Below are positions 538 through 28,563 of a stretch of DNA of 34,140 bases, one piece after another. The position numbers were made by a program, and so were the translations under genes. Under the pieces are notes generated by a model. It saw only the letters and a program-made list of their open reading frames with translations. It was not told the origin of the DNA and did not search any database. Numbering within the stretch: position 1 is the first letter of the stretch; each line of letters begins with the position of its first letter. Origin of the DNA: Bacteroidaceae bacterium (lineage in GTDB: Bacteria > Bacteroidota > Bacteroidia > Bacteroidales > Bacteroidaceae); contig JAFYMW010000069.1 in assembly GCA_017548165.1 (NCBI GenBank), positions 1 through 34,140 of the forward strand, given 5' to 3'.

Positions 538-573
538 CACCCCTCTCCTCATCAGCAGGTGAGGGGTGTTTTG
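538..573 (+). terminator. Rho-independent terminator after pflB
   Basis: A perfect 8-bp inverted repeat, CACCCCTC (538-545) and GAGGGGTG (561-568), is followed by TTTT. It starts 30 nt after the pflB stop codon. It suggests that pflB and pflA are at least partly separate transcripts. Confidence 0.7.
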
Positions 574-622
574 GTTAACGGTTAACGGTGAGCGGTGAAC
601 GATTAGCGGTGAACGGTTTGAC
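573..622 (+). repeat. Heptanucleotide tandem array, sense orientation, downstream of pflB
   Basis: Seven consecutive units read GGTTAAC, GGTTAAC, GGTGAGC, GGTGAAC, GATTAGC, GGTGAAC and GGTTTGAC (the last has 8 nt). The period is exactly 7 bp. The closing GGTTTGAC also occurs at the edge of the array near 28519. This is the clearest array of a family found in other gaps of the window. Confidence 0.8.
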
Positions 623-654
623 ATCGTAGCGCAGTCACATGCTTTGGCAACTGA

Positions 655-785
655 TTAATCCACCCTCTCCCCCTTCGGGTACTCTCCCTGTCTCAGGGAG
701 AGAAAGTCAATGAGGAACACTATCATCCACTTTGTCCCCTTAAGATAGGGGGACGAGGAACAAAGTTCCGGAGGGGTATGAACTA
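655..785. repeat. GC-rich palindromic intergenic segment (REP-like) in the pflB-pflA gap
   Basis: No gene is visible here. Two hairpins stand out: CTCTCCCTG (682-690) with CAGGGAGAG (694-702) around a 3-nt loop, and GTCCCC (734-739) with GGGGAC (749-754). GGAGGGG follows at 770-776. The style recalls dispersed palindromic intergenic repeats of Bacteroidota genomes, but only one copy this complete is in the window. Its function is unknown. Confidence 0.45.
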
Positions 786-826
786 AAACCTAAACAAGCC
801 CGAAACGACTCTCTAAACACTAAACA
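783..826 (-). repeat. Heptamer units in opposite orientation just before pflA
   Basis: CTAAAAC and CTAAACA are adjacent (783-796), and two more CTAAACA units lie at 813-826, five nt before the pflA start codon. They run opposite to the sense array at 573-622. Other gaps in the window show the same before-start orientation. Confidence 0.5.
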
Positions 827-831
827 ACAAA

Positions 832-1563
832 ATGAACATAGGTCGTATCCACTCTTTGGAATCCTTTGGCACTGTCGACGGACCAGGTATCCGTTTCCTA
901 GCCTTCATGCAGGGTTGTCCCATGCGTTGCCTTTTCTGCCACAATCCCGATACTTGGGATTTGAAGGCTCCAGTCAAATACGAATGGACTGCCCAGCAAT
1001 TGTTGGAAGAAACCATGAAGTATCGCAATTTCATCAAGACTGGCGGTGTTACCTGCACTGGTGGCGAACCCCTTGTCCAGGCTGCCTTTGTTGAAGAATA
1101 CTTCCGCTTATGCAAGAAAGAGGGTATTCACACGGCTCTGGATACCAGCGGCGTAATCTTCAATGATGCTGTACGCAACCTTTTGGAAGTAACTGACTTG
1201 GTTTTGCTTGACGTAAAGACCGTGGACGATGAACTGCATCCCCGCCTTACAGGTCATAAGCGTACGCATCCCCATCAGATGATGGAGTATCTGCAAAGCA
1301 TAGGCAAACCCGTATGGATTCGACATGTTGTCACTCCCGGCATCAACGATGACGATGAGCACCTACTATCCACTGCTCGTTACGTGAGCCAATATAGTGT
1401 AGTGGAGCGAGTGGACATCCTACCATACCATGTTATGGGGGAACATAAGTATGAATACATGGACATAGAATACCCTCTTAAGGGAACCACTGCCCTTTCT
1501 GTTGAAAAGAAAAAGCATGCCGTAGAACTCTTCAAAAATATACTTTCCTGCAAGGTGGTGTAA
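832..1563 (+). CDS. pflA: Pyruvate formate-lyase activating enzyme (radical SAM)
   Basis: This cytoplasmic radical SAM enzyme uses a 4Fe-4S cluster and S-adenosylmethionine to place the glycyl radical on PFL. The 243-residue length is normal for the family. The N-terminus IGRIHSLESFGTVDGPGIR is the activase signature. The cluster cysteines are C29, C33 and C36 in CPMRCLFC, followed by HNPDTW. The SAM-contacting GGE motif is visible as TGGEPL. The ATG at 832 fits the usual N-terminus exactly. Its substrate gene pflB lies directly upstream on the same strand, 323 bp away. A good hairpin terminator follows at 1593-1620. No clear TAnnTTTG promoter was found in the gap, so read-through from pflB remains possible. 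Confidence 0.96.
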   Translation: MNIGRIHSLESFGTVDGPGIRFLAFMQGCPMRCLFCHNPDTWDLKAPVKYEWTAQQLLEETMKYRNFIKTGGVTCTGGEPLVQAAFVEEYFRLCKKEGIHTALDTSGVIFNDAVRNLLEVTDLVLLDVKTVDDELHPRLTGHKRTHPHQMMEYLQSIGKPVWIRHVVTPGINDDDEHLLSTARYVSQYSVVERVDILPYHVMGEHKYEYMDIEYPLKGTTALSVEKKKHAVELFKNILSCKVV

Positions 1564-1592
1564 TAAGAAAGTTGCTATTTCACAATAAGTGA

Positions 1593-1626
1593 GAGGGTGT
1601 ATCAAATTTGACACACCCTCTTCCCT
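1593..1626 (+). terminator. Terminator after pflA
   Basis: GAGGGTGT (1593-1600) pairs with ACACCCTC (1613-1620). The inner TCAAATTTGA is itself palindromic, giving a nearly continuous stem. TTCCCTTTTC follows. The TTTGACACACCC segment recurs in the terminator near 30370. Confidence 0.75.
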
Positions 1627-1659
1627 TTTCCTGCATTATCTCTTGCAAGATCTAGGACT

Positions 1660-1785
1660 TTACTTTAGCTGGTCTGCTACGAATGCCTTCATCTTCTGGC
1701 CACGCAGATTACGCTTCACAATGATACCGTCAGGACCGAAAAGCATAATTTGGGGAATACCCTTAATGCCATAGAGTGAGCTAAT
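1660..1785 (-). pseudogene. C-terminal remnant of a thioredoxin-fold (TlpA/AhpC-TSA-like) protein
   Basis: Reading the minus strand from about 1780 to the stop at 1660-1662 gives LYGIKGIPQIMLFGPDG, then IIVKRNLRG, then a short helix ending ADQLK and a stop. This is the last third of a thioredoxin fold: the cis-Pro (GIP), the strand IMLFGPDG and the terminal helix. No start codon, CxxC motif or N-terminal domain is present upstream. The frame becomes low-complexity AT-rich sequence near 1785. A promoter-like TATATTTG on the same strand lies at 1805-1812, only about 20 bp from the break. I infer an internal deletion that removed most of the gene but left the promoter and the 3' end. Confidence 0.72.
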
Positions 1786-1804
1786 GATTTTTATTATAAC
1801 AGAG

Positions 1805-1812
1805 CAAATATA
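1805..1812 (-). promoter_or_regulatory. Bacteroidota-type -7 box in front of the thioredoxin remnant
   Basis: TATATTTG on the minus strand is a perfect TAnnTTTG match facing the truncated gene at 1660-1785. A TTG lies about 17 nt upstream, a slightly short spacer. Confidence 0.45.
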
Positions 1813-1970
1813 CCACATTTTGAAACAAACAACCTAATATTTTACCATTATTTTAAGTTTATTTGCCCTTTAGCAAGTTTTCATAAGCACACCTTGCCTC
1901 GGATGGCCTTCTATTACTACGAATAAAAGTTAAATTCAAGACATTATCGCAAAATACCGATATCTAACTA

Positions 1971-2001
1971 TTGCAATATTAAAGGGCATTACATTACTTT
2001 G
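1971..2001 (+). promoter_or_regulatory. Candidate promoter of the blaI-M56 operon
   Basis: TTACTTTG (1994-2001) is one base off the TAnnTTTG consensus. A TTG lies 20 nt upstream (1971-1973), which is the expected spacing. The start codon is at 2030. No obvious BlaI operator dyad was recognised. Confidence 0.5.
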
Positions 2002-2029
2002 CATCAGCGAAACACAAATAAATGAATCT

Positions 2030-2410
2030 ATGAGACGCAAAGAAGACTCTTTGACAAAGCTTGAGTTCGAAGTAATGACAATCCTATGGGATCTGGATCG
2101 CCCAGCATGCGCTTGGGATGTGCTAAATCTATGGCCCGAACCCAAACTGGCTTATACCACTATAGCCACATATCTGAAGGTATTGTACGAAAAAGGATAT
2201 GTGGACTTCTCCAAGAACAAAGGCGAGGGCAAGACGCATATGTATGTGGCATTGGTATCACGAGCCGAGTACACACGCCGTACCATGCAGGATGTAAAGA
2301 AGAATTTCTTCGGTGGCAATCTCAAGTCGATGTTCAGTTATTTCGTACGTGAGGAGAACCTCTCTCCAGAAGAAATACAGGAACTACTCTCTGCCATATC
2401 GGAAGAGTAA
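2030..2410 (+). CDS. BlaI/MecI/CopY-family transcriptional repressor
   Basis: This is a 126-residue winged-helix repressor, about the usual family length. The N-terminal part (LTKLEFEVMTILWDLDRPA, with AYTTIATYLKVLYEKGYV) is the DNA-binding domain. In BlaI the TTIATYL helix reads the operator. The C-terminal part (from about residue 80) contains the dimerisation helices and the NLSPEEIQELL helix usual at the end. The gene lies 39 nt upstream of an M56 peptidase gene, the standard sensor partner. In the family the activated M56 protein leads to cleavage of the repressor and derepression. The repressor probably controls its own operon. No beta-lactamase gene is adjacent, so the regulated target and signal are unknown. 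The gene name blaI would over-claim the function. Confidence 0.92.
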   Translation: MRRKEDSLTKLEFEVMTILWDLDRPACAWDVLNLWPEPKLAYTTIATYLKVLYEKGYVDFSKNKGEGKTHMYVALVSRAEYTRRTMQDVKKNFFGGNLKSMFSYFVREENLSPEEIQELLSAISEE

Positions 2411-2449
2411 CACAATTAATGTTTCACACATATATATAAGGTATAGATT

Positions 2450-4144
2450 ATGACTGAAGCATTGTTAATGTATTCTCTGAAGTCGACTCTTGTGTTGATG
2501 CTTCTGTACATTCCCTATGTGTTGATATTGAGAAAAGAAAGCTTCTTTCGATTCAACAGGGCGGTTCTCCTGATGATTATGCTATTATCGCTTGTGCTTC
2601 CACTGATGAACATACAAGCACTATCGTGGGACAACCAACCTGTGGTGCAGGTGGCACAACAACAGATGATAGAGATAGGCATACCCATAAAAGTTGATAC
2701 ATACCTACCAGAAATAACGATCGATGGCAAGAACAATGGCATAGAGGTTTCGTGGTTCCACATAGCTTCCATTCTCTTTGTTATCGGTGCGCTGACAATA
2801 CTTCTTTGTCGCATTGTACAGGTTGTACGCATGGGACATGTAGTAAGAAGCGGAAGCCTATGGCATCAGCAGGAGGATGGCGTAACCATTTATTGCCATG
2901 CTGACGATGTATCTCCTTTTAGCTGGATGAACAATGTAGTCATCAGTGCCAAGGATTATGAGGAGAATGCACGAGAGATTCTGCTGCACGAGAAAGGGCA
3001 TGTGAGGGCACGACATTCTTGGGACTTACTCTTGCTAACCCTGATACAAGTGCTTCAGTGGTTGAATCCGTTTGTCTACATTCTGGGATATAGTCTTCGC
3101 GATGTGCATGAATACGAGGCCGACGACTCTGTTCTGAGAAGTGGAGTCTCTGCCAAAGCCTACCAGTTATTGCTTATAAAAAAAGTTGTTGGCGCCAGCT
3201 CCTACACTTTTGCCAACAACTTTGACCATAGTTTAACTTTAAAACGTATCACTATGATGCAGAAATCAAAATCCAGTGTGTGGATGCGCAGCAAGGTGCT
3301 GTACATCGTTCCAATGGCAACTCTGGCACTCAGTGCCTTTGCCACCAGCGAGAGTGTGTCCCTTTCAGGCAATGAGATTGCCAAGAACGAGGACAAAGTT
3401 ATTAAAATTAGTGCATCCAGACAAGCGGATGAGACTAAAAAAGTAGGTTCTTCCGTTGTATTTCCTACTAATGAAAATATTGTCTACCTTGTGGACGGTA
3501 CTGAGGTCAGTTTGGAAGCTGCCAAAGCATTGTCGCCAGAGAAGATAGAGGCTATTACGGTATTCAAGAAAGAAGCAGCGGCAAGTTTGGGCTATCCTGG
3601 CAAGACGGTAGTCAAGATTAAGACAAAGAAGGTTGTCGAGCAAGTCAAATTCTTACCAGACGAGGCCGTATTGTCAAGCTATGATACTCCACAAAAGGTG
3701 TCATATGTTCCGAAACCTGCCGTGCAGGCACAATTCAAGGGTGGAGATGCGGCATTGATGCAATGGCTTTGTAAAAACGTGAAATACCCCTCCGAGGCTC
3801 AGAGCCAAGGTGTGATGGGAAGAGTTCAGGTAGAGTTCTTCATTACAGAGACAGGTCAGATAACCAATATCCGCGCTATAGCATTTGGCAAACACACACC
3901 TGAGAGAAGTAATACATTGCCCGAGATGGTTGTTATGGCTTATGCAAAGGAGAAAAAGGCCGAAGGCAAGGAACTCTCTGTCCAAGAGCAGCAGGCATAC
4001 AAGCGTGCCGTTGAGGCCCTGCTTGCCGAATCCGTAAGGGTAGTAGGTGCCATGCCAGCATGGGAACCTGGTTATGTAGACAAGGAAAAGACTAAGCCCT
4101 GCACCACCAGATATGTACTGCCTATTATGTTTAGGTTAAGCTAA
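2450..4144 (+). CDS. M56-family (BlaR1-like) membrane metallopeptidase with C-terminal TonB domain
   Basis: This 564-residue inner-membrane sensor-protease is the partner of the BlaI-type repressor. Hydrophobic segments lie at about 10-27, 38-55 and 103-120, with another near 195-215. The zinc site HEKGH is at 180-184, followed by ARHSWD, with the downstream acidic ligand in EYEAD (221-225). A further hydrophobic segment near 280-300 leads to a periplasmic region. That region holds a segment like the TonB-receptor plug (VDGTEVS, SPEKIEAITVFKKEAA, then KIKTKK, about 345-400). It ends with a TonB C-terminal domain, from FKGGDAALMQWL to YVLPIMFRLS. Bacteroidota M56 proteins often carry this TonB domain in place of the penicillin-binding domain of BlaR1, so a beta-lactam signal should not be assumed. 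Confidence 0.9.
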   Translation: MTEALLMYSLKSTLVLMLLYIPYVLILRKESFFRFNRAVLLMIMLLSLVLPLMNIQALSWDNQPVVQVAQQQMIEIGIPIKVDTYLPEITIDGKNNGIEVSWFHIASILFVIGALTILLCRIVQVVRMGHVVRSGSLWHQQEDGVTIYCHADDVSPFSWMNNVVISAKDYEENAREILLHEKGHVRARHSWDLLLLTLIQVLQWLNPFVYILGYSLRDVHEYEADDSVLRSGVSAKAYQLLLIKKVVGASSYTFANNFDHSLTLKRITMMQKSKSSVWMRSKVLYIVPMATLALSAFATSESVSLSGNEIAKNEDKVIKISASRQADETKKVGSSVVFPTNENIVYLVDGTEVSLEAAKALSPEKIEAITVFKKEAAASLGYPGKTVVKIKTKKVVEQVKFLPDEAVLSSYDTPQKVSYVPKPAVQAQFKGGDAALMQWLCKNVKYPSEAQSQGVMGRVQVEFFITETGQITNIRAIAFGKHTPERSNTLPEMVVMAYAKEKKAEGKELSVQEQQAYKRAVEALLAESVRVVGAMPAWEPGYVDKEKTKPCTTRYVLPIMFRLS

Positions 4145-4183
4145 GAATGTTTGTCCTATTGGTTAATAAAGGTACATAAACCT

Positions 4184-4233
4184 CACACTCCAGTACCATG
4201 TTCTACGCAAAGCGACAATGATACTGGAGTGTG
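4184..4233. terminator. Bidirectional hairpin between convergent genes
   Basis: A perfect 12-bp inverted repeat, CACACTCCAGTA (4184-4195) and TACTGGAGTGTG (4222-4233), encloses a 26-nt loop. It lies between the M56 gene and the patatin gene, which converge. No strong T-run follows, so the terminator call rests on the stem and position. Confidence 0.55.
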
Positions 4234-4257
4234 TTATATACTAACAAAATCCTTTTA

Positions 4258-5124
4258 CTACATATCCACGCCAACGAGTACTCCCTTCATCTGTACCCTA
4301 CCCAATTGGGATATCGCTTCGGCCTTGTCGTAGTCGTAGAATCCATATTCGCCAAGTGAAACATTGAGATATATGTCGGGCGGAGTGAGACGCAATGCCA
4401 TTTCGGTGTTGCGCTTCATCAGTATCAGGAGGGTATCGTAGGTAAGAGACAGATAATTATTGCTCAAGGCAGAAACCCCAGCATGGAACTTTCGCGACAA
4501 CTTTTGAAAAGTTGAGGCTTCTTCTGAAGTCTGCGATATGGTGTGATTGGGATGAAGGTCACCCTCTTCGTCCCATTCGTAGTTGTCAAGATTCACCGCC
4601 ACAAGGACATCCCCCAGAGTGCGTTGCACCTGGTCAAGAGGAAGACCATTGGTCATAGCACCATCTATGAGCAACATATCGCCATACTCCACGGGACTAA
4701 ACACCATAGGAATAGAGATACTGGCACGGATAGCATCGTACAGACTACCACTACGGAATACCACCTCACTACCCGTCTTGAGATCGGTTGCCACGGCACA
4801 ATATGGTATCGGCAAATCCTCTATACGACAGTCCGGCACTATGGATTTGAGAGCATCTATTACCCTATCACCCTTGAGGAAGGCATGCGGGCTGAGCGTA
4901 AAGTCAGCAAGGTTGAAGACATCACGATTGGTGAGATCGTACATCCACTCCTTCACTTTGTCGAGACCTCCGGCAGCATATATACCACCTATCAATGCAC
5001 CCATAGAAGCACCTGCTATGGAGGATATTTCATAACCAGCATCCTCCAATGCCTCTATTGCACCAATATGCGCAAACCCTTTGGCTCCACCACTGGCAAG
5101 CACCAAAGCAACCTTTTTCTTCAT
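4258..5124 (-). CDS. Patatin-like phospholipase (RssA/YchK type)
   Basis: This is a 288-residue serine lipid acyl hydrolase with a Ser-Asp dyad. The oxyanion loop SGGAKGFAHIG is at 11-21, the nucleophile elbow GASMG has Ser40, and the catalytic Asp154 is in DGAMTNG, where many homologs have DGG. IPMVFSP is also typical. There is no signal peptide, so the protein is probably cytoplasmic or membrane-associated. The gene starts 18 nt after lepB and is likely the last gene of the dapB-lepB operon. The C-terminal part, after about residue 195, is family-variable. The substrate cannot be read from the sequence. It ends with TAG, which shows that TAG acts as a stop in this genome. Confidence 0.9.
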   Translation of the reverse strand: MKKKVALVLASGGAKGFAHIGAIEALEDAGYEISSIAGASMGALIGGIYAAGGLDKVKEWMYDLTNRDVFNLADFTLSPHAFLKGDRVIDALKSIVPDCRIEDLPIPYCAVATDLKTGSEVVFRSGSLYDAIRASISIPMVFSPVEYGDMLLIDGAMTNGLPLDQVQRTLGDVLVAVNLDNYEWDEEGDLHPNHTISQTSEEASTFQKLSRKFHAGVSALSNNYLSLTYDTLLILMKRNTEMALRLTPPDIYLNVSLGEYGFYDYDKAEAISQLGRVQMKGVLVGVDM

Positions 5125-5142
5125 AATAGAGAAAAAAAGAAT

Positions 5143-6747
5143 TTATTTGATATTATCTACCAAGCGGAACAGACGATTCCATCTGATAGCGCCCAAACCA
5201 CCACGGTCAGGATCCATAGAAAGCCAGATGATAATGGGCTTACCTACGATGTGGTCTTCGGGAACAAAGCCCCAATAACGTGAATCGGCACTATTGTGAC
5301 GATTGTCGCCCTGCATCCAGTAGTAGTCCATCTTGAAGGTATACTCATCTGTTTCCTTACCGTTTATCATTATACGACTATCATCTGTTACCTGAAGGTC
5401 ATTGCCTTCATATACTCGTATGGGACGTTCGTAGACAGGTAGATTCTCCATAGTAAGTTTGATGGTTTCTCCCTTGGCAGGAATCCATACAGGACCATAG
5501 TTGTCGCATGTCCAACCTGTGTGTCCGTTCAAGGGATAGAGCAAACCAGTCTCGTCTTGTTTGTGGTACTTGATACTCTCCACAAGGTCGGTACGAGCCT
5601 CCAAGGCAGCCTTGGCCTTGGATGTAAGAGGCATTATGTATGTCCATTTCATTGATTCAATTTCATCAGAATGAATACCCAGTCCATCTACCCATGTTGA
5701 TGGCAATGGCTTAATTAAACCAACCATAGTGGCGCTATCTGTCATATTGACATATCCTACATATTCTCTCGCATCATTAGAACAAAGATACCTAACAGCT
5801 TCATCGGAAAGAGTTAGCGCGCCATATAAAAACAACCCACTTAAATCATCCTTGGAGATACCCAAACTATGTGCAAACTCAAAAGGTATGGAATATTTAA
5901 CAGTTACTTCATAATTGTACTGAACTTCATCGGGTTCCTTGTTTGCCACTCCATCCAGATAGATGATATGGTCGCGTATTTCCAGTGTCTGCCCCGGGAG
6001 TCCTACGCAGCGCTTGACATAGTTTTCCCTACGATCGACCGGACGCCATTGAACCTTGCCATACTTTGCTGGATCTGATTTGACATAGTCGCTTCCAACC
6101 TGAATGGCATAGTTATAAAAACGATATTGCTCCAAAGCCGACATACTGTCAATACCAGCAGGAACATCGAGATTGTGAACGTAAAGTTCTTTGCAGAGAC
6201 GATAGTAGTCGGTATTCTGGAAATTGTATGCTATGGTATCTCCTGCAGGATAGTTGAAGACAACAATATCGTTGAGAGTAATCTTTTTAGGAGTCACACG
6301 CTTGTAGTCCCATTGCAAACTCTCAATGTAACTCTTGCCCAAGCCCAAAGGCAAGGTATGCTGACACAAAGGAGCATGCAGAGGTGTTTGAGGCACACGA
6401 GGACCATAGGTCATCTTGCTCACGAAGAGATAGTCGCCAACCAGCAAGCTCTTCTCAAGCGAACTGGAAGGTATGGTATAATTCTGGAAGAAGTATATAT
6501 TGACAAAATAGACCGCTACCAGGGCAAACACTATAGCATCCACCCACGACATCACCATGCGCAGGACAGGATCTTCGAGGTCTTTCCACCATCCCCAGTT
6601 GATCTTCTTCGTGACATAGGCATCAAAGATGAAGGGGAGAACAATGACACCCCACCAGGATTGTATCCATACAAGGAAGGCGATATATAAGGCACTAGCT
6701 ACAAGACCCTTTATCCAATCTTTCTTCGTTGGTTTGTATTTCTTCAT
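5143..6747 (-). CDS. lepB: Signal peptidase I (S26), long Bacteroidota form
   Basis: This enzyme removes signal peptides from exported proteins on the outer face of the inner membrane. The 534-residue protein is much longer than the E. coli enzyme. N-terminal membrane segments lie at about 12-45 and 65-88. The catalytic Ser96 is in TIPSSSLEKSLLVGD and the general-base Lys245 is in YVKRCVGLPGQ. The box E motif GDNRHNSADSRYWGFVPEDH lies near the C-terminus. The extra length comes from two insertions, one between the Ser and Lys regions and one of roughly 200 residues between the Lys region and box E. This is common in Bacteroidota LepB. The gene lies 13 nt after dapB and 18 nt before the patatin gene on the same strand. 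Confidence 0.95.
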   Translation of the reverse strand: MKKYKPTKKDWIKGLVASALYIAFLVWIQSWWGVIVLPFIFDAYVTKKINWGWWKDLEDPVLRMVMSWVDAIVFALVAVYFVNIYFFQNYTIPSSSLEKSLLVGDYLFVSKMTYGPRVPQTPLHAPLCQHTLPLGLGKSYIESLQWDYKRVTPKKITLNDIVVFNYPAGDTIAYNFQNTDYYRLCKELYVHNLDVPAGIDSMSALEQYRFYNYAIQVGSDYVKSDPAKYGKVQWRPVDRRENYVKRCVGLPGQTLEIRDHIIYLDGVANKEPDEVQYNYEVTVKYSIPFEFAHSLGISKDDLSGLFLYGALTLSDEAVRYLCSNDAREYVGYVNMTDSATMVGLIKPLPSTWVDGLGIHSDEIESMKWTYIMPLTSKAKAALEARTDLVESIKYHKQDETGLLYPLNGHTGWTCDNYGPVWIPAKGETIKLTMENLPVYERPIRVYEGNDLQVTDDSRIMINGKETDEYTFKMDYYWMQGDNRHNSADSRYWGFVPEDHIVGKPIIIWLSMDPDRGGLGAIRWNRLFRLVDNIK

Positions 6748-6760
6748 GACGACATTTAGG

Positions 6761-19887: not shown

Positions 19888-20044
19888 GGTGAAAACGGGA
19901 AACGGACTTGCGAAGCTTGATGAGCGAAACGCGAATAAAACTGCGAGCGGAAGCAGGCTTGACGATGGTCAAAACTGAAAACTGCCGCTCTTGGCGTTGA
20001 CCATCTGTTTCGTTTCACGTTTTTTGATTTCAGTTCTCCGTTTT
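19888..20044. repeat. Heptamer-bounded inverted-repeat spacer between S46 peptidase and hydroxyacid dehydrogenase
   Basis: The left arm, GGTGAAAACGGGAAACGG (19888-19905), starts just after the peptidase stop. The right arm (20011-20044; CGTTTCACG through CTCCGTTTT) runs in the opposite orientation and abuts the next ATG. Inside, GATGGTCAA (19964-19972) pairs with TTGACCATC (19997-20005) and GAGCGG (19945-19950) with CCGCTC (19985-19990). The whole 162-bp gap can fold as one long imperfect hairpin. No separate gene is present. Confidence 0.7.
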
Positions 20045-21007
20045 ATGAAGATAGTCATTCTGGATGCCTATACCGCCAATCCTGGCGATTTGTCGTGGAA
20101 GAGTTTAGAGGCTCTTGGCGATGTTGAGATTTACGAGCGTACTGCGCCTGAGGATGTTTTGTGTCGTGCCGATGGTGCCGAGGCAGTGTTGGTAAACAAA
20201 GTAAAGATGACCCGCGAGGTGATAGAATGCCTGCCAGCTCTGCGCTATATCGGTGTGTTGGCAACGGGCTACAACGTTGTTGACTTGCAAGCAGCAAAGG
20301 AGCGTGACATCGTAGTCACCAATGTACCAGCATATAGTAGCATGTCGGTGGCACAAATGGTGTTTGCCCATCTGCTTAATATAACAAACGAGGTGGCGCA
20401 CTATTCCTATGAGGTGGCTCGTGGCAAATGGGCTTCATCAAAAGACTTCTGCTTCTACGACTCTACCTTGACAGAACTGGAGGGACGAACTATGGGCATT
20501 GTGGGTCTTGGAAATATCGGTATGGCAGTGGCTCGCATTGCTTTGACCTTTGGCATGAAGGTTGTAGCTTTCACGAGTAAGCCAGCAGATGATTTAAAGG
20601 CCTTGGAGATAGAAAAAATCTCGTCGTACGAGGAACTGTTCTCACTCTCGGATGTGCTCTCGCTTCATTGTCCTTTGACCGATGATACTCTACATCTGGT
20701 TAATGCCGAGCGCCTGGCATTGATGAAACCCTCGTCGATACTGATAAATACAGGTCGTGGTCCATTGGTTGATGAGCAGGCCTTGGCAGATGCCCTAAAT
20801 GGTGGCAAGATTCGTGCCGCTGCCTTGGATGTACTCGCCGAAGAACCACCTATGGCTGGCAATCCTTTACTGAAGATACCAAATTGTTTCATCACTCCAC
20901 ATATCGCTTGGGCCACCAAGGAGGCAAGAACGAGGTTACTCGAAGTTGCCATAAAGAACGTAGAGGCCTATATACAAGGGAAAGCTATTAATGTGGTAAA
21001 TGTTTAA
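20045..21007 (+). CDS. D-2-hydroxyacid dehydrogenase (glycerate/hydroxypyruvate reductase-like)
   Basis: This is a 320-residue NAD(P)-dependent oxidoreductase that interconverts 2-keto acids and D-2-hydroxy acids in the cytoplasm. The Rossmann motif is GIVGLGNIGMAVAR. The catalytic Arg is in TGRGPLV, the Glu in VLAEEPP and the His in TPHIAWA. The N-terminal substrate domain and overall size are standard. The ATG at 20045 (MKIVILDAYTANPGDL) is chosen because upstream in-frame sequence is only translated repeat. The closest known relatives in my judgement are glycerate dehydrogenases, but the exact substrate is not certain. The stop codon TAA lies inside a heptamer unit, GTTTAAC at 21002-21008. 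Confidence 0.92.
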   Translation: MKIVILDAYTANPGDLSWKSLEALGDVEIYERTAPEDVLCRADGAEAVLVNKVKMTREVIECLPALRYIGVLATGYNVVDLQAAKERDIVVTNVPAYSSMSVAQMVFAHLLNITNEVAHYSYEVARGKWASSKDFCFYDSTLTELEGRTMGIVGLGNIGMAVARIALTFGMKVVAFTSKPADDLKALEIEKISSYEELFSLSDVLSLHCPLTDDTLHLVNAERLALMKPSSILINTGRGPLVDEQALADALNGGKIRAAALDVLAEEPPMAGNPLLKIPNCFITPHIAWATKEARTRLLEVAIKNVEAYIQGKAINVVNV

Positions 21008-21154
21008 CGATGAACGTCAGAGATTAGCGAATAGGAATTAAGTTTCTAACACGCTTTGCTGTCTTTACTTTGTCTTGTCTACCCCCCAAGATTATCAGCG
21101 AGTTCATCAAGTAAAGTAAGTCGGTTAATCCCTGTTTTCCCTTTTCCGTTAAAA
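21002..21154. repeat. Heptamer-bounded spacer between hydroxyacid dehydrogenase and HAD hydrolase
   Basis: Sense units GTTTAAC, GATGAAC, GTCAGA, GATTAGC and GAATAGG run from 21002 to 21035 and include the upstream stop codon. Opposite-oriented units GTTTTCC, CTTTTCC and GTTAAAA lie at 21134-21154, two nt before the next ATG. Inverted pairs inside are GATGAAC (21009-21015) with GTTCATC (21102-21108) and CTTTACTT (21063-21070) with AAGTAAAG (21109-21116). TTACTTTG (21065-21072) could be a -7 box for the HAD gene. Confidence 0.6.
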
Positions 21155-21864: not shown

Positions 21865-21888
21865 CAATACAACTATTTACCATAATCT

Positions 21889-22160: not shown

Positions 22161-22169
22161 AAAAATACG

Positions 22170-22354: not shown

Positions 22355-22359
22355 TTATA

Positions 22360-22409: not shown

Positions 22410-22415
22410 AAAGGA

Positions 22416-22470: not shown

Positions 22471-22489
22471 GGGGGGGCGAACATCCCAT

Positions 22490-22942
22490 CTATCTCTTCA
22501 TCAATCGTTCTATTGCCATCTGTTCGTATTTGGTGCCGGGACGACCATAATTGGCATAGGGGTATATGGAGATACCGCCACGTGGAAGGAAGATGCCTGT
22601 GACCTCAATGTACTTGGGGTCCATAAGGCGGATGAGATCCTTCATAATAATGTTGACACAGTCCTCGTGGAAAGCGCCATGATTGCGAAAGCTAAAGAGG
22701 TAGAGCTTAAGACTCTTGCTTTCAACCATCTTGATATCGGGGATGTAGCAGATGCGTATCTCCGCAAAATCGGGTTGACCAGTTATGGGACACAGACTGG
22801 TGAACTCGGGACAGTTAAATTGTACCCAGTAATCGTGTTCGGGGTGCTTGTTGTCGAAGGCTTCAAGTACTTCTGGAGCATAGTCTTGACGATATTGGGT
22901 GGTATTACCCAACAGAGTCAGTTGGTCTTGTAATTCAGACAT
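22490..22942 (-). CDS. queF: NADPH-dependent 7-cyano-7-deazaguanine reductase (QueF)
   Basis: QueF reduces preQ0 to preQ1 in the cytoplasm during synthesis of the tRNA nucleoside queuosine. The 150-residue length is the short, YkvM-like (type I) form. The active site is [14 protein letters not shown] with nucleophile Cys51 and Asp58. The QueF motif is [14 protein letters not shown] (73-86), and the helix with [10 protein letters not shown] follows. The gene lies 50 nt downstream of a YhhQ-type transporter gene on the same strand, so preQ0/preQ1 supply and reduction are joined in one operon. The queC, queD and queE genes are not in this window. It ends with TAG. Confidence 0.96.
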
Positions 22943-22992
22943 ATTATTTTTTGTTTTAATGCAGTCTCCCCCTCCTATTGCTCATCGTTAAT

Positions 22993-23673
22993 TCACTTCC
23001 AGAATTTGAAAAAATTATAGGATATATTTTCATCAAAGACATCGGTGCCTTCCATGGTTTTCAGTTTATTAACAACGCGTATGGTAATGGGAAGCGCTAT
23101 TACCTCGTACATGGACTTCAAGATAATCTGTGTAAGCATCAGCATGAACAAATCTGGCAAAGCAATAAGTCCACCGAAGGCAATAGGAAAAAAGATGATG
23201 GAGTCTACTGTTTCACCAGCAAAAGTAGAAAGCACGGCACGCAAAGAGAAATGCCTTCCCTTGTGCGCCACCTTCATCTTGCTCATGGTATATGCGTTGG
23301 TAAACGAGCCGAACAAGAATGCCAATAGACTGGCAAGCACTATTCGGGGTGTCAACCCGAAGATGAAATTGAAATGCTCCTCACCATCCCAATACGGTGC
23401 TGCAGGAAGGGCTACAGCCAAGAGTCCCACAGCCGCCACAAAGAAGTTCATAGCAAAACCCGTCCAAATAACGAGTGTGATTCTGCGGAATCCCCACACT
23501 TCGGCAATGCAATCGTTGATAATGTAGGAGATGGGAAAAACCAGCATTCCTGCTGTGATGGTGGTGATACCGAAAAAATCGAGAACCTTTGTCTCAAGGA
23601 GATTTGCTGTTATAAGGCAGACAACAAAAACTACTGCCAACAGCATAAACAATACTGATACTTGTTGTTTCAT
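22993..23673 (-). CDS. YhhQ-type queuosine precursor transporter (VUT family)
   Basis: This 226-residue integral membrane protein has about six hydrophobic segments. Signature stretches of the VUT/DUF165 (COG1738) family are ITANLLETKVLDFFG, AGMLVFPISYIINDCIAEVWG, ASLLAFLFGSFTNAYTMSKM and FAGETVDSIIFFPIAFGG. Members import queuosine precursors such as preQ0 or preQ1 across the inner membrane. Linkage to queF, 50 nt downstream, supports that role here. Just after its TGA stop a degenerate sense-oriented heptamer-like stretch (TTAACGATGAGC) appears. The leader of about 100 nt contains a candidate preQ1 riboswitch. Confidence 0.92.
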   Translation of the reverse strand: MKQQVSVLFMLLAVVFVVCLITANLLETKVLDFFGITTITAGMLVFPISYIINDCIAEVWGFRRITLVIWTGFAMNFFVAAVGLLAVALPAAPYWDGEEHFNFIFGLTPRIVLASLLAFLFGSFTNAYTMSKMKVAHKGRHFSLRAVLSTFAGETVDSIIFFPIAFGGLIALPDLFMLMLTQIILKSMYEVIALPITIRVVNKLKTMEGTDVFDENISYNFFKFWK

Positions 23674-23675
23674 AT

Positions 23676-23710
23676 TTCCTGTTTTTTACGTGGTGTTCTG
23701 GAATACACGT
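23676..23710 (-). promoter_or_regulatory. Candidate preQ1-I-like riboswitch (H-type pseudoknot) in the yhhQ leader
   Basis: On the minus strand stem P1 is ACGTG (23710-23706) with CACGT (23692-23688). The 13-nt loop TATTCCAGAACAC contains TTCC, which can pair with GGAA just after an A-rich tail (AAAAAACA). That gives P1, a 2-nt loop, P2, a 7-nt loop with AAC, P1' and an 8-nt A-rich loop, the layout of class I preQ1 riboswitches. The P2 3' strand covers the AGGA in front of the ATG. The sequence match to the published consensus is only partial, so this is a hypothesis. Confidence 0.42.
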
Positions 23711-23783
23711 TGGAGGAATTAGGGTGGATATATTCTTAGCTCGTAGTTCAACACCCACAGTTTTTCAAAAAACATTCCGTCGG

Positions 23784-23814
23784 CAAATGTACGGCAAAGT
23801 TTTGGATTTGACAA
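23784..23814 (-). promoter_or_regulatory. Promoter of the yhhQ-queF operon
   Basis: On the minus strand CTTG (23815-23812) is followed by a 20-nt spacer and TACATTTG (23791-23784), a perfect -7 box. The predicted leader is about 100 nt, longer than for other genes in the window. Confidence 0.7.
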
Positions 23815-23861
23815 GAGTTTGGATAGTTAATAATGGCCCTTAATTTTAATGTTTCGTGCGC

Positions 23862-23979
23862 AAAAATGCATTTTTTAGTATTTTTGTGCCAAAAATGATG
23901 AATAAATTGTACAAATTAACTAATTTTGTGCCGGCAAATTAAACCTTCCAAGGTAAACTTGTCTAAAAAACGATATCGT
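23862..23979. promoter_or_regulatory. Palindrome-rich control region upstream of the acyl-CoA ligase gene
   Basis: Four dyads lie in this gap: AAAAATGCATTTTT (23862-23875), TTTTTG-TGC-CAAAAA (23881-23895), ACCTTCCAAGGT (23943-23954) and ACGATATCGT (23970-23979). Two perfect TAnnTTTG boxes point toward the ligase gene, TATTTTTG (23879-23886) and TAATTTTG (23921-23928). The dyads may be operators, but no cognate regulator was identified. Confidence 0.4.
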
Positions 23980-24034
23980 CAGGAAGCGGTATCACGATTT
24001 GGTATATGTTGTCAATATAATACTTAATATATAT

Positions 24035-25714
24035 ATGAAACACTTTGTTAGTCTTTTTAATGACTCTGTAAAAGAGAATTGGACATCTCCTGCTGTAACA
24101 AATTTTGGCGGTGAGACTTATACTTATGGCCAAATGGCCGAGAAAATAGCAAAATATCATATCCTCTTTGCAGAGGCTGGAATCAAGAAAGGCGACAAAG
24201 TTGCTTTATATGCCCGTAACTCGGCAGAATGGGTTGTTGCATATTTTGCAACATTGACTTATGATGCGATATCAGTACCTTTCCTGCCTGATTTTATTCC
24301 TGCCGCAGTGGCAGAACTGAGTGCCTTCTCTGAATGCAAGTTGCTGATTGCTGACGATATTGCATTCAAGGGTTTGATGGATGATGAAAAGTATATCAAG
24401 CAACTTGAATCTACCCCTGGGTTTGCCGGCATTATCAACGTCAATGATATCAGCATATATTTAGCAACAGAAAATGCTTTGGCTGCAGCCCACGACACCA
24501 TCAACGAACACTTCGCAAAACTCTATCCCAATGGTTTGAGTGCTGACATCATTAACTATTATCCCGAGGAGCGCGATATGGAAGCTATTGTTGAAATCAG
24601 CTTCACATCTGGAACAACCAGTGCAACATCAAAGGGTGTTGTCCTGCCTGCGCGTTCGTTGTCGGTGAACCTTGAATTTGCACGCCGTGAGATTCCTGCC
24701 ACACGCGGTGGACATATCTTTGCAATCCTACCAATGGCTCATATGTTTGGTCAGACATTCGATGTATTGTTCCCCTTGGCAGGTGGTTGCCATGTGTTCG
24801 TAATGCCTGGCAAACCAACACCAGCGCGTCTGTTAGAAGGTTTGGGCAAGGTCAAGCCTTTTATGTTCCTTACAGTGCCTCTGGTTATAGAGAAGATTTT
24901 CAAGTCAAAGGTATTCCCTGCTACACGCGCATACCCCGCCAAACTGCTTTTAAAAATACCTGGTCTTGACAAGATTGTACTGAACAAGATAAAGAAGTCA
25001 CTTCTTACCGCCTTTGGCAATGGTTTCACCACAGGCCTTATTCTTGGTGGTGCGGCACTGAATCGTGAGGTTGAGGACTTGCTAAAGCGTATGAATTTCC
25101 CCTACGTTGTAGGTTATGGTATGACCGAGTGCGGCCCGCTTATCTCATATTGTGACAAGAGCGAGTTTGTGAAATATTCATGTGGTAAAAAGGCCGATCC
25201 GCTGGAGTTGCGAATTGATTCTACAGATCCACGCAAAGTTATGGGTGAGATCCAGGTAAAGGGCGATGCTGTCATGCTTGGATACTATAAGAATGAAAAT
25301 GCTACTACAGCCACCTTCACAGAGGATGGATGGCTGAAGACCGGCGACATGGGTATTATGGACAGCAAGGGCAATGTTTTCATTAAGGGACGTTGTAAGA
25401 ATATGATTCTAACAGGTAATGGCCAGAACATCTACCCCGAAGAGATTGAGGACAAGATAAACAACCTTCCATACGTTTTGGAATCATTAGTAGTTGGACG
25501 AAAGAACGCCATCGTTGCGCTTGTTGTTGCCGACTACGACGCTGGTAAGAAAGCTGGTTTTGACGAGCAGGCTCTCGAGAAACTTATCAACACCAATGTT
25601 CTTGCACTGAATGCAGAATTGCCTGTTTATAGCAAAATAGCTAGTACCGAGATTAGCCACGAAGCCTTTGAAAAGACCCCCAAGCTAAGCATCAAGCGAT
25701 ATCTGTACTCTTGA
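24035..25714 (+). CDS. AMP-dependent long-chain fatty-acid-CoA ligase
   Basis: This enzyme activates fatty acids with ATP and CoA through an acyl-adenylate at the inner face of the membrane. From the ATG at 24035 (MKHFVSLFNDSV) it has 559 residues. Upstream in-frame sequence is AT-rich leader. The adenylate-forming motifs are the P-loop TSGTTSATSKG (191-201), the aromatic substrate motif GYGMTECGPLISY, the Asp motif WLKTGDMG and KGRCKNMILTGNGQNIYPEE, with a catalytic-type Lys near the C-terminus (KTPKLSIKR). The P-loop departs from the usual TSGTTGxPKG: it is one residue longer and lacks the Gly and Pro. The rest is typical. The fatty-acid length preference is unknown. Confidence 0.9.
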   Translation: MKHFVSLFNDSVKENWTSPAVTNFGGETYTYGQMAEKIAKYHILFAEAGIKKGDKVALYARNSAEWVVAYFATLTYDAISVPFLPDFIPAAVAELSAFSECKLLIADDIAFKGLMDDEKYIKQLESTPGFAGIINVNDISIYLATENALAAAHDTINEHFAKLYPNGLSADIINYYPEERDMEAIVEISFTSGTTSATSKGVVLPARSLSVNLEFARREIPATRGGHIFAILPMAHMFGQTFDVLFPLAGGCHVFVMPGKPTPARLLEGLGKVKPFMFLTVPLVIEKIFKSKVFPATRAYPAKLLLKIPGLDKIVLNKIKKSLLTAFGNGFTTGLILGGAALNREVEDLLKRMNFPYVVGYGMTECGPLISYCDKSEFVKYSCGKKADPLELRIDSTDPRKVMGEIQVKGDAVMLGYYKNENATTATFTEDGWLKTGDMGIMDSKGNVFIKGRCKNMILTGNGQNIYPEEIEDKINNLPYVLESLVVGRKNAIVALVVADYDAGKKAGFDEQALEKLINTNVLALNAELPVYSKIASTEISHEAFEKTPKLSIKRYLYS

Positions 25715-25965
25715 TAACGAGCGTTGAGCGGAATTATCCATCTCCATCGCTTTGTTTCTCGCTCCCGTCTGACACAGGCAGACAGTTTTAATAACTTTAG
25801 AGAATCCCACCCCTCCGTTACATTGCTCCTAGTTCCACCAACATATGGAAACTAGGAGCAATTAACGTTTAGCCCCCTCCGTCGTGTGACGGAGGGGGCT
25901 GTTAAGTATCATTACGACTCATATAACTTTATCACTAATCGCAGTTGTAGAGTCTGAGGAGTTAA
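25715..25965. terminator. Convergent gap with three hairpins
   Basis: No gene is present between the ligase and helicase genes. GTCTG and CAGAC (25767-25783) are followed by TTTT and could end the ligase transcript. TTGCTCCTAGTT (25823-25834) pairs with AACTAGGAGCAA (25850-25861). AGCCCCCTCCGTC (25871-25883) pairs perfectly with GACGGAGGGGGCT (25888-25900) around GTGT. The last is the strongest stem but lacks a T-run in either direction. Confidence 0.6.
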
Positions 25966-27906
25966 TTATTTTTTCTTTGGTTTGCGACGTGCCCAACCTT
26001 CCTCAGTAAAGTCGGGAGTATCACCTTTGAATGGAGAGGTGTCGGGGTGCAGGAACTTCATCCAATCATCCTTGGTGTAGTGATGTTGCTGAGGAGGAGT
26101 CTTTAATGATGAGCGGTGGGCAGAGTTTTCCGCTCTTCCTTTTCCGTTTTTCCTTTTCGACCCGAATTTGTCGTCCTGAATCTGCTCTCGCCTACTCGCA
26201 GATTTTACCCTTCCGTTTTCACCTTTCCGTTTCCCACGTGCCTCCTTGTCACCAGCGGTCTTATCGGCAACATCGCACACCACGCTACGACCTTTCACCG
26301 TAACACCATGCTTCATGGCTTTGATGACATCCTGAGCCTGTTCGCTGGCCACCTCAACAAAAGTAAAACTCTTCATCAGGTCTATCTTGCCAATCTCTAT
26401 CTGCTGACCTCTAACGCTACGATTGATTAGTCCCATTACCTCCTTGGCATAGAAACCATCTATCTTACCCACATTGAGGAACAGACGCGTATATCCTTCC
26501 TCGGCCTGACGAGGTCCCTTGCCTCCACGCTTAGAAACATCACCAGAAGACTTTCCTTCCTTTACCTCCTCTATTTCGGGAGCATCGGCATAATAGGCAA
26601 GGAAACGTCCGAATTCACGGCTGACGATACGCTTGATGAGTTCCTCCTTGTCGAGCCACTCCCAACGACGCACCACTTCGGGCATAACATCGGCAATCTC
26701 CTCTTCCATGACATCAACGCGTTCGATGTCGTCTATGACACGGTAGAGTTGCTTCTGGCAGATGTCCTTGCCAGAGGGCAGGGTGCCACGCTCGAACTGC
26801 TTCTGTATGGCTTTTTCTATGATGCGTATCTTTCCCTTCTCTCGAATGTGAACGATGCTGATGCTGGTTCCCTTCTTGCCGGCACGGCCAGTACGGCCAC
26901 TTCGATGAGTGTAGTTCTCGGTATCGTCGGGCAAACCATAGTTGATAACATGTGTGAGATCGTTAACATCAAGTCCGCGTGCTGCTACATCGGTAGCCAC
27001 AAGCAATTGTGTGCGATGTTGGCGGAATTTCTGCATCGTGAGGTCGCGCTGTTGCTGGGAGAGATCGCCATGCAAGGCATCGGCATTGTAACCATCCTGT
27101 ATCAGTTTGTCGGCAATCTCCTGAGTTTCCATACGGGTGCGACAGAAGACAATGCCATAGATGCGGGGATAGTAGTCAACGACACGCTTCAGTGCAAGAT
27201 ATTTATCCTGCGCGCGTACCATATAATATATATGATTTACATGCTCGGCACCCTCATTGCGCGACCCGACCTGTATTTCCTTGGAGTTCTTTAAGTATTT
27301 GCGTGCGATATTTTCTATCTCCTTGCTCATTGTAGCAGAGAAGAGCAGGGTGCGGTGGTCTTCTGGGATGCCTCCAAGAATTTCGTTAAGATCTTCCTGG
27401 AATCCCATAGTGAGCATCTCGTCGGCCTCGTCAAGAACAACATTATGGATGGTTGAGAGATTGGCGGCTCCACGTTTCATTAAGTCAATCAAACGACCTG
27501 GAGTAGCAACGAGTACATTTACACCTCGCTTTAAGGCACGAATCTGGGCATCAATATTAGTTCCACCATATACTGGGAGGATATGCACACCATCGGAATG
27601 TTTGGAAAATCCCTCCAAATCGTCTGCTATCTGTAAACAAAGTTCTCTTGTAGGAGCAAGTATCAACGAGACGGGATGCAATGATGCTCCCTCAGTAAGT
27701 TGTACTATAGGAAGACCATAAGCAGCAGTCTTGCCAGTACCTGTCTGTGCCAACGCCACAAGGTCGCCCTGCCATCCACTCTCGTCGTCATTACCTAGAA
27801 GTACCGGTATCACTGCTTCCTGGATTGGCATCGGGTATTCATAACCTTGCTCGCCTATGGCTTGCAATATTCTCTCGTTTAATCCTAATTCTTCAAATGA
27901 TTTCAT
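25966..27906 (-). CDS. DEAD-box ATP-dependent RNA helicase with DbpA-type RNA-binding domain (DeaD/CsdA-like)
   Basis: This 646-residue RNA helicase probably remodels rRNA or structured mRNA. The motifs are AQTGTGKT (Lys59), PTREL, TPGR, DEAD (159-162), SAT (190-192), ATDVAARGLDV and HRSGRTGR (334-341). A DbpA-like RNA-binding domain lies at about 471-545 (YTRLFLNVGKIDGFY to VCDVADKT). From 551 to 600 the chain is a basic, low-complexity linker. Two blocks of it, GKRKGENGRVK (558-568) and SKRKNGKGR (583-591), are encoded by the heptamer repeat found elsewhere between genes. After it comes a C-terminal tail (KDDWMKFLHPDTSPF and WARRKPKKK). The downstream side converges with the ligase gene. 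Confidence 0.94.
   Translation of the reverse strand: MKSFEELGLNERILQAIGEQGYEYPMPIQEAVIPVLLGNDDESGWQGDLVALAQTGTGKTAAYGLPIVQLTEGASLHPVSLILAPTRELCLQIADDLEGFSKHSDGVHILPVYGGTNIDAQIRALKRGVNVLVATPGRLIDLMKRGAANLSTIHNVVLDEADEMLTMGFQEDLNEILGGIPEDHRTLLFSATMSKEIENIARKYLKNSKEIQVGSRNEGAEHVNHIYYMVRAQDKYLALKRVVDYYPRIYGIVFCRTRMETQEIADKLIQDGYNADALHGDLSQQQRDLTMQKFRQHRTQLLVATDVAARGLDVNDLTHVINYGLPDDTENYTHRSGRTGRAGKKGTSISIVHIREKGKIRIIEKAIQKQFERGTLPSGKDICQKQLYRVIDDIERVDVMEEEIADVMPEVVRRWEWLDKEELIKRIVSREFGRFLAYYADAPEIEEVKEGKSSGDVSKRGGKGPRQAEEGYTRLFLNVGKIDGFYAKEVMGLINRSVRGQQIEIGKIDLMKSFTFVEVASEQAQDVIKAMKHGVTVKGRSVVCDVADKTAGDKEARGKRKGENGRVKSASRREQIQDDKFGSKRKNGKGRAENSAHRSSLKTPPQQHHYTKDDWMKFLHPDTSPFKGDTPDFTEEGWARRKPKKK
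26125..26236 (-). repeat. Two heptamer-repeat blocks inside the helicase gene
   Basis: The block at 26208-26236 holds TTCCGTTTTCACCTTTCCGT (from 26211), the same sequence as the arm at 32735-32767 but for one missing 7-bp unit. The second block (26125-26158) has TTTTCC-type units. Both lie in the reading frame of the linker, with the G-rich strand as coding strand. Confidence 0.75.
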
Positions 27907-27973
27907 CCGTATCCCTTTTTCTATACTTACATTACTATTTATATTAAACTTGCTCGTCGTAAGTTACTTATAA

Positions 27974-28411
27974 CTAAACACCAGCCACATCCAATGTGTA
28001 GACGTTGGTTTCTTTGGGTTTGAACCCCATGCTACGATATAGAGCATTGGCTGCGATGCGAGTAGGTTTGGAGGTCAGTCCCACCTTGTACGATAGTCCG
28101 CTATCCTTTAGATATTGTAAAGCGTATTGCACCAGTTTTCTTCCTAATCCCATACCCTGACACTCCGGCAGAACAACGACATCCTCGATAGTAGCATGGC
28201 GGCCTGTGGGAATAGTAAAACAACACATTGTGGTCATACCAACAATACGTCCGTCGGCATCGCGTGCAACAAACAGGTGCGAATCTTCCTTGGCCAGCAC
28301 CTCGTCTATAACATCCCTGTTAGCCTTGCATGATGAAGAAAGAACACCAACAAGTACCTCTATCTGTCGGAACTCTATGTCCGTACAACTTGTCATTCTG
28401 GTTATTTTCAT
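27974..28411 (-). CDS. GNAT-family N-acetyltransferase
   Basis: This 145-residue acetyl-CoA-dependent acetyltransferase has the GNAT fold in order: an N-terminal strand (MKITRMTS), a central beta-strand region (HLFVARDADGRIVGMTTM), motif A with the pyrophosphate loop QGMGLG (85-90) after IEDVVVLPE, and the C-terminal NALYRSMGFKP. The acceptor could be an amine, an amino acid or a protein, and the sequence does not decide. The gene lies between the CPBP gene (117 nt upstream) and the helicase gene (67 nt downstream) on the same strand. Two heptamers (TCTAAAC twice on this strand) end just before its ATG. Confidence 0.9.
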   Translation of the reverse strand: MKITRMTSCTDIEFRQIEVLVGVLSSSCKANRDVIDEVLAKEDSHLFVARDADGRIVGMTTMCCFTIPTGRHATIEDVVVLPECQGMGLGRKLVQYALQYLKDSGLSYKVGLTSKPTRIAANALYRSMGFKPKETNVYTLDVAGV

Positions 28412-28415
28412 ATTT

Positions 28416-28429
28416 GTTTAGAGTTTAGA
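28416..28429 (-). repeat. Two heptamer units before the GNAT start codon
   Basis: GTTTAGA occurs twice in tandem on the plus strand, which is TCTAAAC twice in the sense of the GNAT gene, five nt upstream of its ATG. It resembles the CTAAACA pair before pflA. Confidence 0.45.
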
Positions 28430-28518
28430 GTATAAGGGCAGAGTACTAGATAGCAAAGTAGATAATTCCGCAAAAAAGCAGTAACGACTCCTCTCTTTTG
28501 CAGAGGGATTGGGGGAGA

Positions 28519-28563
28519 GTCAAACCACTCACCGCTCATCCGTTTTCCGTTTTCCGTTTTCAA
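28519..28563 (-). repeat. Heptamer array covering the 3' end of the CPBP gene
   Basis: On the minus strand three GGAAAAC-type units are followed by GGATGAGC, GGTGAGT and GGTTTGAC. The array spans the last codons and stop of the CPBP gene. GGTTTGAC is also the last unit of the array after pflB. Confidence 0.75.

Follow-up and report, generated by a model that had tools for sequence, protein, structure and literature searches.

Why would short repeats of seven bases sit in the gaps between genes with one strand presented after a stop codon and the other before a start codon? The question was raised by a 34,140-nucleotide stretch of a Bacteroidaceae bacterium (GenBank assembly GCA_017548165.1, contig JAFYMW010000069.1, our contig C87), which was analyzed over its whole length and is called the window here. 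The original prediction, made by a model from the letters of the window, described 7-bp units in five gaps between co-directional genes, in sense orientation just after the upstream stop and in opposite orientation just before the next start. We find that oriented heptamer arrays occur genome-wide in the metagenome-assembled genome (MAG) to which the window belongs, and that the rule of strand and position is strong and general there.

The MAG comprises 2.17 Mb in 136 contigs and is 81% complete; judged by pflA, the named relatives nearest to it are Bacteroidaceae MAGs recovered from the colon or cecum of ruminants. The window and 60 further stretches of the MAG made up a first set (747 kb, 396 gaps), and 210 kb of further contigs made up a held-out set, the two together amounting to 957 kb; gaps shorter than 25 bp were excluded from every count. 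Genes were called by a simple longest-open-reading-frame method with ATG starts and a length of at least 240 nt, which places starts only approximately and overlooks small genes. The repeat units were defined after inspection of the first 747 kb, and the gene context of the held-out 210 kb was unseen, but unit strings from some of its contigs had already been listed.

The units on the post-stop strand split into two series, and most of them have no G run longer than GG. Series B is G[GAT]T[GT]A[GA][CA] (GGTGAGC, GATTAAC, GTTTAGC and so on), every unit of which contains TGA, TAA or TAG, and series A consists of GGAAAAC/GGTGAAA and their variants. For the rule, an array needed two or more adjoining units no farther than 40 bp from a gene end, and each end cast one vote. 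Arrays within called reading frames were omitted from the rule counts (9 B and 5 A in the first set, 3 B and 3 A in the held-out set), and some of these frames look like spurious long frames. One near-identical gap found in both L130 and L145 entered the counts twice.

Orientation of heptamer arrays across the genome

Within 40 bp of gene ends, the G-rich strand was in sense at 46/49 stop ends and in antisense at 17/19 start ends over the pooled 957 kb. The first set gave 36 sense, 1 antisense and 1 mixed case at stops and 13 antisense and 2 sense cases at starts, and the held-out set gave 10 sense and 2 antisense at stops and 4 antisense and 0 sense at starts. Beyond 40 bp the rule is weaker: with all distances included, antisense start-side arrays outnumber sense ones 17 to 5 in the first set but only equal them (5 each) in the held-out set.

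Arrays were found in 39/266 co-directional, 10/62 convergent and 1/68 divergent gaps of the first set and in 12/80, 2/18 and 0/12 of those in the held-out set. When the end zones of all gaps of at least 70 bp in both sets were scored for whether the G-rich strand pointed inward or outward, the 228 co-directional gaps gave 38 inward to 4 outward on the stop side and 22 to 3 on the start side, the 70 convergent gaps 14 to 1 and the 77 divergent gaps 1 to 1. Start-side arrays belong to co-directional spacers and not to starts as such, since they occur in 22/228 co-directional gaps vs. 1/154 divergent start ends (p 1e-4). The foreseen enrichment near stops and starts and the foreseen strand bias are thus both present, held-out contigs included. 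The rule had been tied to co-directional gaps, where it does hold, but it extends to convergent gaps as well, in which the strand at the nearest stop was sense in 22 cases and antisense in 5 (5 and 2 in the held-out set). The stop-free A units, at co-directional and convergent stops taken together, were sense in 22 cases and antisense in 3.

Tandem 7-nt units, together with period 14, dominate short tandem repetition in the sampled intergenic DNA. A self-match scan at lags 4-15 over the 396 gaps of the 747 kb returned 26 runs at lag 7 (23 co-directional, 3 convergent, 0 divergent), 27 at lag 14, 4 at lag 15 and 12 in total at lags 4-6 and 8-13, while one first-order Markov resampling of the gaps returned 0 at lag 7 and 2 over all lags together. 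The coding interiors of the same set held 2 lag-7 runs, and an earlier scan of 272 kb had found 14 in gaps and 1 in coding DNA. Read backwards, the motif gave 1 intergenic hit in the first set and 1 in the held-out set.

Series B is further tied to the genes it follows by its register. Where a B array lay near or over a stop codon, the gene's own stop was in phase with the stop of the unit in 22/34 cases (9.7 expected, p 1e-5), and with the 8 stop-overlapping arrays removed it was so in 15/26 (p 0.002).

Arrays of the window and their counterparts in relatives

The units described for the five gaps are present in all five, although in the pflB-pflA gap the stop-side array begins 64 bp past the stop and not just after it. 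Tandem Repeats Finder reported period-7 arrays at 573-618, 28416-28431, 28539-28561, 32615-32646 and 32736-32767 of the window. The pflB-pflA stop-side array (573..617, plus strand) consists of GGTTAAC/GGTGAGC/GATTAGC units in sense and sits beyond a terminator-like hairpin; it holds all 5 overlapping window hits of a 17-base GGTKAAC pattern (at most 3 mismatches; shuffle mean 0.20). Before pflA, the units CTCTAAACACTAAAC (811..825) differ from those of the stop-side array; their reverse complement, on the minus strand and antisense, reads GTTTAGN, a unit that the congener G051 has on the stop side. A separate dispersed palindrome lies between the two arrays at 660-779 (CTCTCCCTGTCTCAGGGAGAG and CCCCTTAAGATAGGGGGACGAGG), and CTCGTCC-CCC modules resembling it are present in many sampled gaps.

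After the S46 peptidase stop, GGTGAAA/GGGAAAC units (GGTGAAAACGGGAAACGGA) occupy 19888..19906 on the plus strand, and before the dehydrogenase start GTTTCGTTTCACG...CAGTTCTCCGTTTT at 20007..20044 are of GGAGAAC/GTGAAAC type on the minus strand. A dispersed hairpin module (core CTTGATGAGC) has a copy at 19907-19938 in the same gap and others in gaps of L010, L011, L023 and L120; its stem arms differ among copies, and heptamer arrays often adjoin it. The core has 19 matches in the 957 kb, namely 7 in co-directional gaps, 3 in convergent gaps, 8 in called frames and 1 elsewhere. At the other end of the dehydrogenase gene, the pair GTTTAAC-GATGAAC (21002..21016, plus strand) contains the stop codon TAA within its first unit, and TGTTTTCCCTTTTCCGTT (21133..21150, minus strand) precedes the HAD gene.

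The 3' end and stop of the CPBP gene are overlapped by a GGAAAAC array plus GGATGAGC-GGTGAGT (28524..28562, minus strand), and CTCTAAACTCTAAAC lies before the GNAT start within units at 28416..28430, where GTTTAGA on the plus strand is antisense to GNAT. The cysS-glnN gap carries GGAAAAC-type units at both ends: GGAAAGG-GTGAAAAC-GGAAAAC after the cysS stop (32736..32764, minus strand) and a start-side array at 32612..32646, where GGAAAAC on the plus strand is antisense to glnN. The entire gap (32609..32765, minus strand) is a palindromic two-armed block of 157 bp. The weaker sense traces that had been described were seen again, but by eye only: GAATTAAC-GATGAGC across the yhhQ stop (22980..22996, minus strand), a trace past the acyl-CoA ligase stop (25712..25731, plus strand) and GAATAAC-GATTAAT across the methyltransferase stop (30311..30327, plus strand). 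Separately, GGAAAAC-type stretches lie within the reading frame of a DEAD-box helicase at 26126-26158 and 26203-26235, in sense with the gene.

Relatives show how these gaps change. For pflB-pflA, the gap is kept in L026 with about 4 units fewer than in the window (one orthologous array), GGAAAAC-type units follow the stop in L027, and the start is preceded by TGTACTC/TGTTATC units in L029 and by a run of 9-bp period in L028. Among 15 loci from Bacteroidales or more distant taxa (L030-L044), lag-7 runs occur only in L034, in another, divergent gap, and in L039, in the gap before pflA. The 9-bp arrays (CCTTAAAGT-like), directly before starts at about 9918-9965 of L028 and, by eye, at L016:1126-1230 in the MAG itself, represent a second period with a placement similar to that of the heptamers.

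For S46-dehydrogenase, G142 has AAAGGAG/AAATGAG past the stop and its reverse complement before the start, i.e., another unit with the geometry kept, and G143 has two sense units, GAAAAAC-GATTAGC, past the stop; G140 and G141 hold other, longer repeats, and S46 is followed in G139 by a gene other than the dehydrogenase. G139 and L031 have a cysS-glnN gap of 12 and 20 bp, respectively, against 157 bp in the window, and the gap is occupied in G140, G141 and G143 by unrelated blocks (218-232 bp); a whole two-armed block has been gained or lost in this gap. In L267, L268 and L269 the gap is filled by a different block, which has inverted ends (AGACCC...GGGTCT) and likewise reaches almost from the stop to the start. 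The two-armed gap of L113 is 128 bp vs. 15 bp in G051, and four more array gaps have contents entirely unlike those of the congeners they were compared with. In L127:281-466, by contrast with other shared genes, the flanks are 100% identical to those of L029 (genome G142, another species) and the gap is of equal length; misbinning of this contig, C24, is one possibility (MAG contamination 5.07%) and a recent exchange another.

Congeners carry heptamers of their own. Lag 7 is dominant in G051 (GGTTAGN, GTAAACN and AGTTTAG; 63 runs) and G045 (GGTTAGN, AGTGAAG and AATTCAA; 39 runs), with 12 lag-7 runs in G032 and 1 in G043. Pattern hits were the reason for choosing 10/20 stretches of G051, 10/20 of G032, 7/14 of G045 and every one of the 14 from G368, G194 and G309, and G043 was picked because it lacked the pattern. 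Scoring simply by the purine strand is noisy (inward in 21/26 runs of our MAG, 38/63 of G051, 6/12 of G032, 25/39 of G045 and 0/1 of G043). Family-aware pairwise orientation, a clearer measure although its pairs are not independent, gave 86 consistent and 9 inconsistent pairs in our MAG, 70 and 16 in G051, 72 and 34 in G045, and 2 and 3 in G032; those of G051 are almost all stop-stop pairs, and start-to-stop pairs alone give 4 and 3. G051 clearly keeps the geometry at stops and G045 keeps it weakly, with the GG-free units GTTTAGN and AGTGAAG also standing in sense at congener stops.

G368, G309 and G194 represent two other genera. In G368, a sense array lies no more than 25 bp past a stop or within the 3' end of a called frame in 6/6 stretches, and one of the six has, in addition, an antisense array 51 bp beyond the stop of the opposite gene. 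G309 has a sense array within 8 bp of the stop in 4/4 stretches, of which only L289, with sense arrays at both stops, is decisive, because the other three lie in short convergent gaps and are also within about 11 bp of the opposite stop. G194 is mixed: one array breaks the rule, standing in sense 5 bp ahead of a start (gap of 66 bp), one is antisense 63 bp before a start, one is mid-gap and one is unreadable within a long frame. Counting our own MAG, the unit pattern is present in 11/61 genomes of the genus, and G[GA][AT][AGT]A[AG]C has 347 overlapping hits in 35/241 genomes of the family and 10/30 genera, compared with 37 hits in 19 family genomes when read backwards.

What might set strand and position

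The account that we tentatively prefer is one in which slippage-prone, lineage-specific heptamers occupy post-stop spacers and have their strand and position filtered by selection on the spacer mRNA. Heptanucleotide tandem repeats of the short tandemly repeated repetitive (STRR) or long simple sequence repeat (LSSR) type would live in spacer DNA downstream of stop codons and would gain and lose units, probably by slippage, the orthologous pflB-pflA array providing one copy-number difference and the cysS-glnN gap a whole-block change instead. Selection would remove arrays from promoter gaps between divergent genes; directly ahead of a start codon, it would leave the C/T-rich strand in the mRNA, because Bacteroidota start translation on G-poor, unstructured leaders. 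Past the stop the G/A-rich strand would be kept, with the stop-bearing arrays in register with the gene's stop as if growing from it or supplying it. A dedicated regulatory role is not needed by this account.

Several observations weigh against it. The A arrays (16 cases) have no register with the stop, yet stop-free GGAAAAC units share the polarity, for which the account gives no reason, and the post-stop sense polarity of A units is as strong as that of B units. It also appears at convergent stops, where there is no downstream gene to protect. With both A units and convergent stops showing the polarity, selection on mRNA is not its obvious cause past the stop. Nor is the avoidance of divergent gaps absolute, since 7/63 lag-7 runs of G051 lie in such gaps, along with 2 in G045 and 1 in G032.

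The sense-after-stop, antisense-before-start pattern would follow simply from inverted ends if the arrays were the two ends of a palindromic mobile element, resembling miniature inverted-repeat transposable elements (MITEs) or repetitive extragenic palindromic (REP) sequences, that inserts into tight operon gaps. We consider this unlikely, for all that it would suit the palindromic cysS-glnN block and the L113 gap with their short counterparts in relatives. Stop-side and start-side arrays do co-occur in the 228 co-directional gaps (10 with both, 28 stop only, 12 start only, 178 neither; odds ratio 5.3, p 8e-4), and their placement after stops, with divergent gaps avoided, is reminiscent of REP sequences and bacterial interspersed mosaic elements (BIMEs), which lie after stops in co-directional and convergent gaps and not in divergent ones. 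However, the same gaps include 40 one-armed to 10 two-armed cases, the series of the two arms agrees in only 9/13 two-armed gaps (10 co-directional, 3 convergent; p 0.27 vs. half), and the two arms of a gap do not complement each other better than swapped arms do (12.8 vs. 11.9, 9 gaps; 6.8 vs. 6.3 for all 161 co-directional gaps of 100-700 bp). No clear target duplication of more than 2 bases was seen. A REP transposase was rejected as a candidate after a profile search of the 81%-complete MAG for the Y1 transposase family PF01797 (E 0.001) gave no match, other transposases not having been searched for.

Also improbable in our judgment is a structural or regulatory signal, whereby RNA stems or G-quadruplex-like (G4) structures protect mRNA ends, set operon polarity or tune the next gene. 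In its favor, predicted folds of two-armed gaps pair the stop end with the start end in 8/10 cases (at least 8 such pairs), the cysS-glnN gap has a predicted fold of -53.9 kcal/mol (z -5.4) and the S46-dehydrogenase gap a z of -3.2, A units place G-tracts every 7 nt, and G4 formation by Xanthomonas heptamers is on record in Rehm et al. 2015 (PMC4692102), a study that nevertheless could identify no regulatory role. Array-free gaps, though, are equally structured (mean z -2.6, 80/127 folded) when compared with two-armed (-2.9) and one-armed gaps (-1.4 and -1.1). An RNA stem as general cause was rejected on this ground and on the complementarity of swapped arms, and a G-quadruplex as sole cause was rejected given the GG-free units in sense at congener stops.

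Because 7 is not a multiple of 3, repeats of a stop-bearing unit close all reading frames, and the arrays might serve as three-frame stop cassettes behind genes. The stops in all B units and the register fit such a role, as do the stops in all three frames of TAACTGA repeats (PMC4679880), but we find it very improbable: stop-free GGAAAAC units obey the rule, one of them within a reading frame, and the start-side arrays are left unexplained. Stop content cannot set the strand, since GATTAAC, GTTTAGC and GGTTAGC hold stops on both strands; as sole cause of strand it was rejected for this reason and because of the stop-free units. Rho-dependent polarity as the filter was not adopted, convergent stops showing the same strand. 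Lastly, a trans-acting system might write or homogenize the arrays at gene boundaries, which would explain why few units are shared by many loci within a genome, why in the S46-dehydrogenase gap of G142 the unit is replaced with position and strand kept, and why G[GA][AT][AGT]A[AG]C recurs patchily across genera with the reversed pattern far rarer. We give this little credence; if true, it would resemble telomere repeats, in which the sequence follows a template and the placement stays.

That unrelated heptamers follow one rule, in Bacteroidaceae as found here and in Xanthomonas and Nostoc as already published, points to a general constraint on intergenic DNA or mRNA. Within the family the arrays are distributed patchily, and the many related genomes that have or lack them amount to a natural comparative experiment; a culturable array carrier would make the cause testable.

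Comparison with known heptamer repeats

The window's units had been likened to the STRR heptamers of cyanobacteria, reportedly described by Mazel et al. in 1990. These and heptanucleotide LSSRs are similar in being tandem 7-nt units dispersed through a genome; we know of no position or strand rule in the STRR and LSSR papers (Mazel et al. 1990 and Mrazek et al. 2007). Unlike REP sequences and BIMEs, the arrays lack a fixed palindrome, are mostly one-armed and come from a MAG in which no Y1 transposase was found; the conserved palindrome and mobilizing transposase of a REP/BIME or MITE system are replaced here by mixed arm series in 4/13 two-armed gaps and no PF01797 match.

A literature search with unit strings and words found no description from Bacteroidaceae or Bacteroidales among the matches listed, most subscription journals lying outside the search. 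The original prediction, too, knew of none in Bacteroidales, the order to which Paludibacter belongs. In MacGregor 2015 (PMC4679880), TAACTGA direct repeats are reported from Beggiatoaceae, Cyanobacteria and five Bacteroidetes, with two sets of these heptamers in Paludibacter propionicigenes, so heptamers as such are not new to the phylum. TAACTGA repeats are likewise 7-nt, intergenic, stop-bearing, of preferred orientation and patchy among taxa, and some overlap the stop of the upstream gene. They are, however, a single unit, mostly forward and directly upstream of starts, whereas the arrays here are sense after stops and antisense on the start side; units and orientation both differ from TAACTGA forward before starts, and arrays of related heptamers are common here and rare there. 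As cited in PMC4679880, Mrazek et al. 2007 found heptanucleotides to be the most abundant class in most genomes examined, and slippage perhaps favors 7-nt units (cited in PMC4679880 and PMC4692102).

The closest parallel is with the heptamers of Xanthomonas and Nostoc, for which the rule of strand and position is already in print. In Rehm et al. 2015 (PMC4692102), the greatest fraction of heptamers upstream of an open reading frame lies at 0-50 bp on the non-coding strand, most of those downstream (among them every one that overlaps the stop) are on the coding strand at 0-50 bp from it, heptamers are under-represented between divergent frames, and a function was looked for in vain. The likening to cyanobacterial heptamers was apt. 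Our arrays resemble the GGGAATC and GGGGA(C/T)T heptamers in unit length, in hundreds of intergenic arrays genome-wide, in a probable copy and sequence variation among relatives, in stop overlap, in scarcity in divergent gaps and in the strand rule. They differ from them in having degenerate units of several families in one genome (GGTGAGC, GATTAAC, GTTTAGC and GGAAAAC), mostly with GG at most, in the register of the stop with one series and in the near absence of start-side arrays at divergent starts. New as far as searched are a Bacteroidaceae genome that carries the rule with several degenerate units, a stop codon in register with one series, the gain or loss of a block in one orthologous gap, and two arms that are not specifically complementary.

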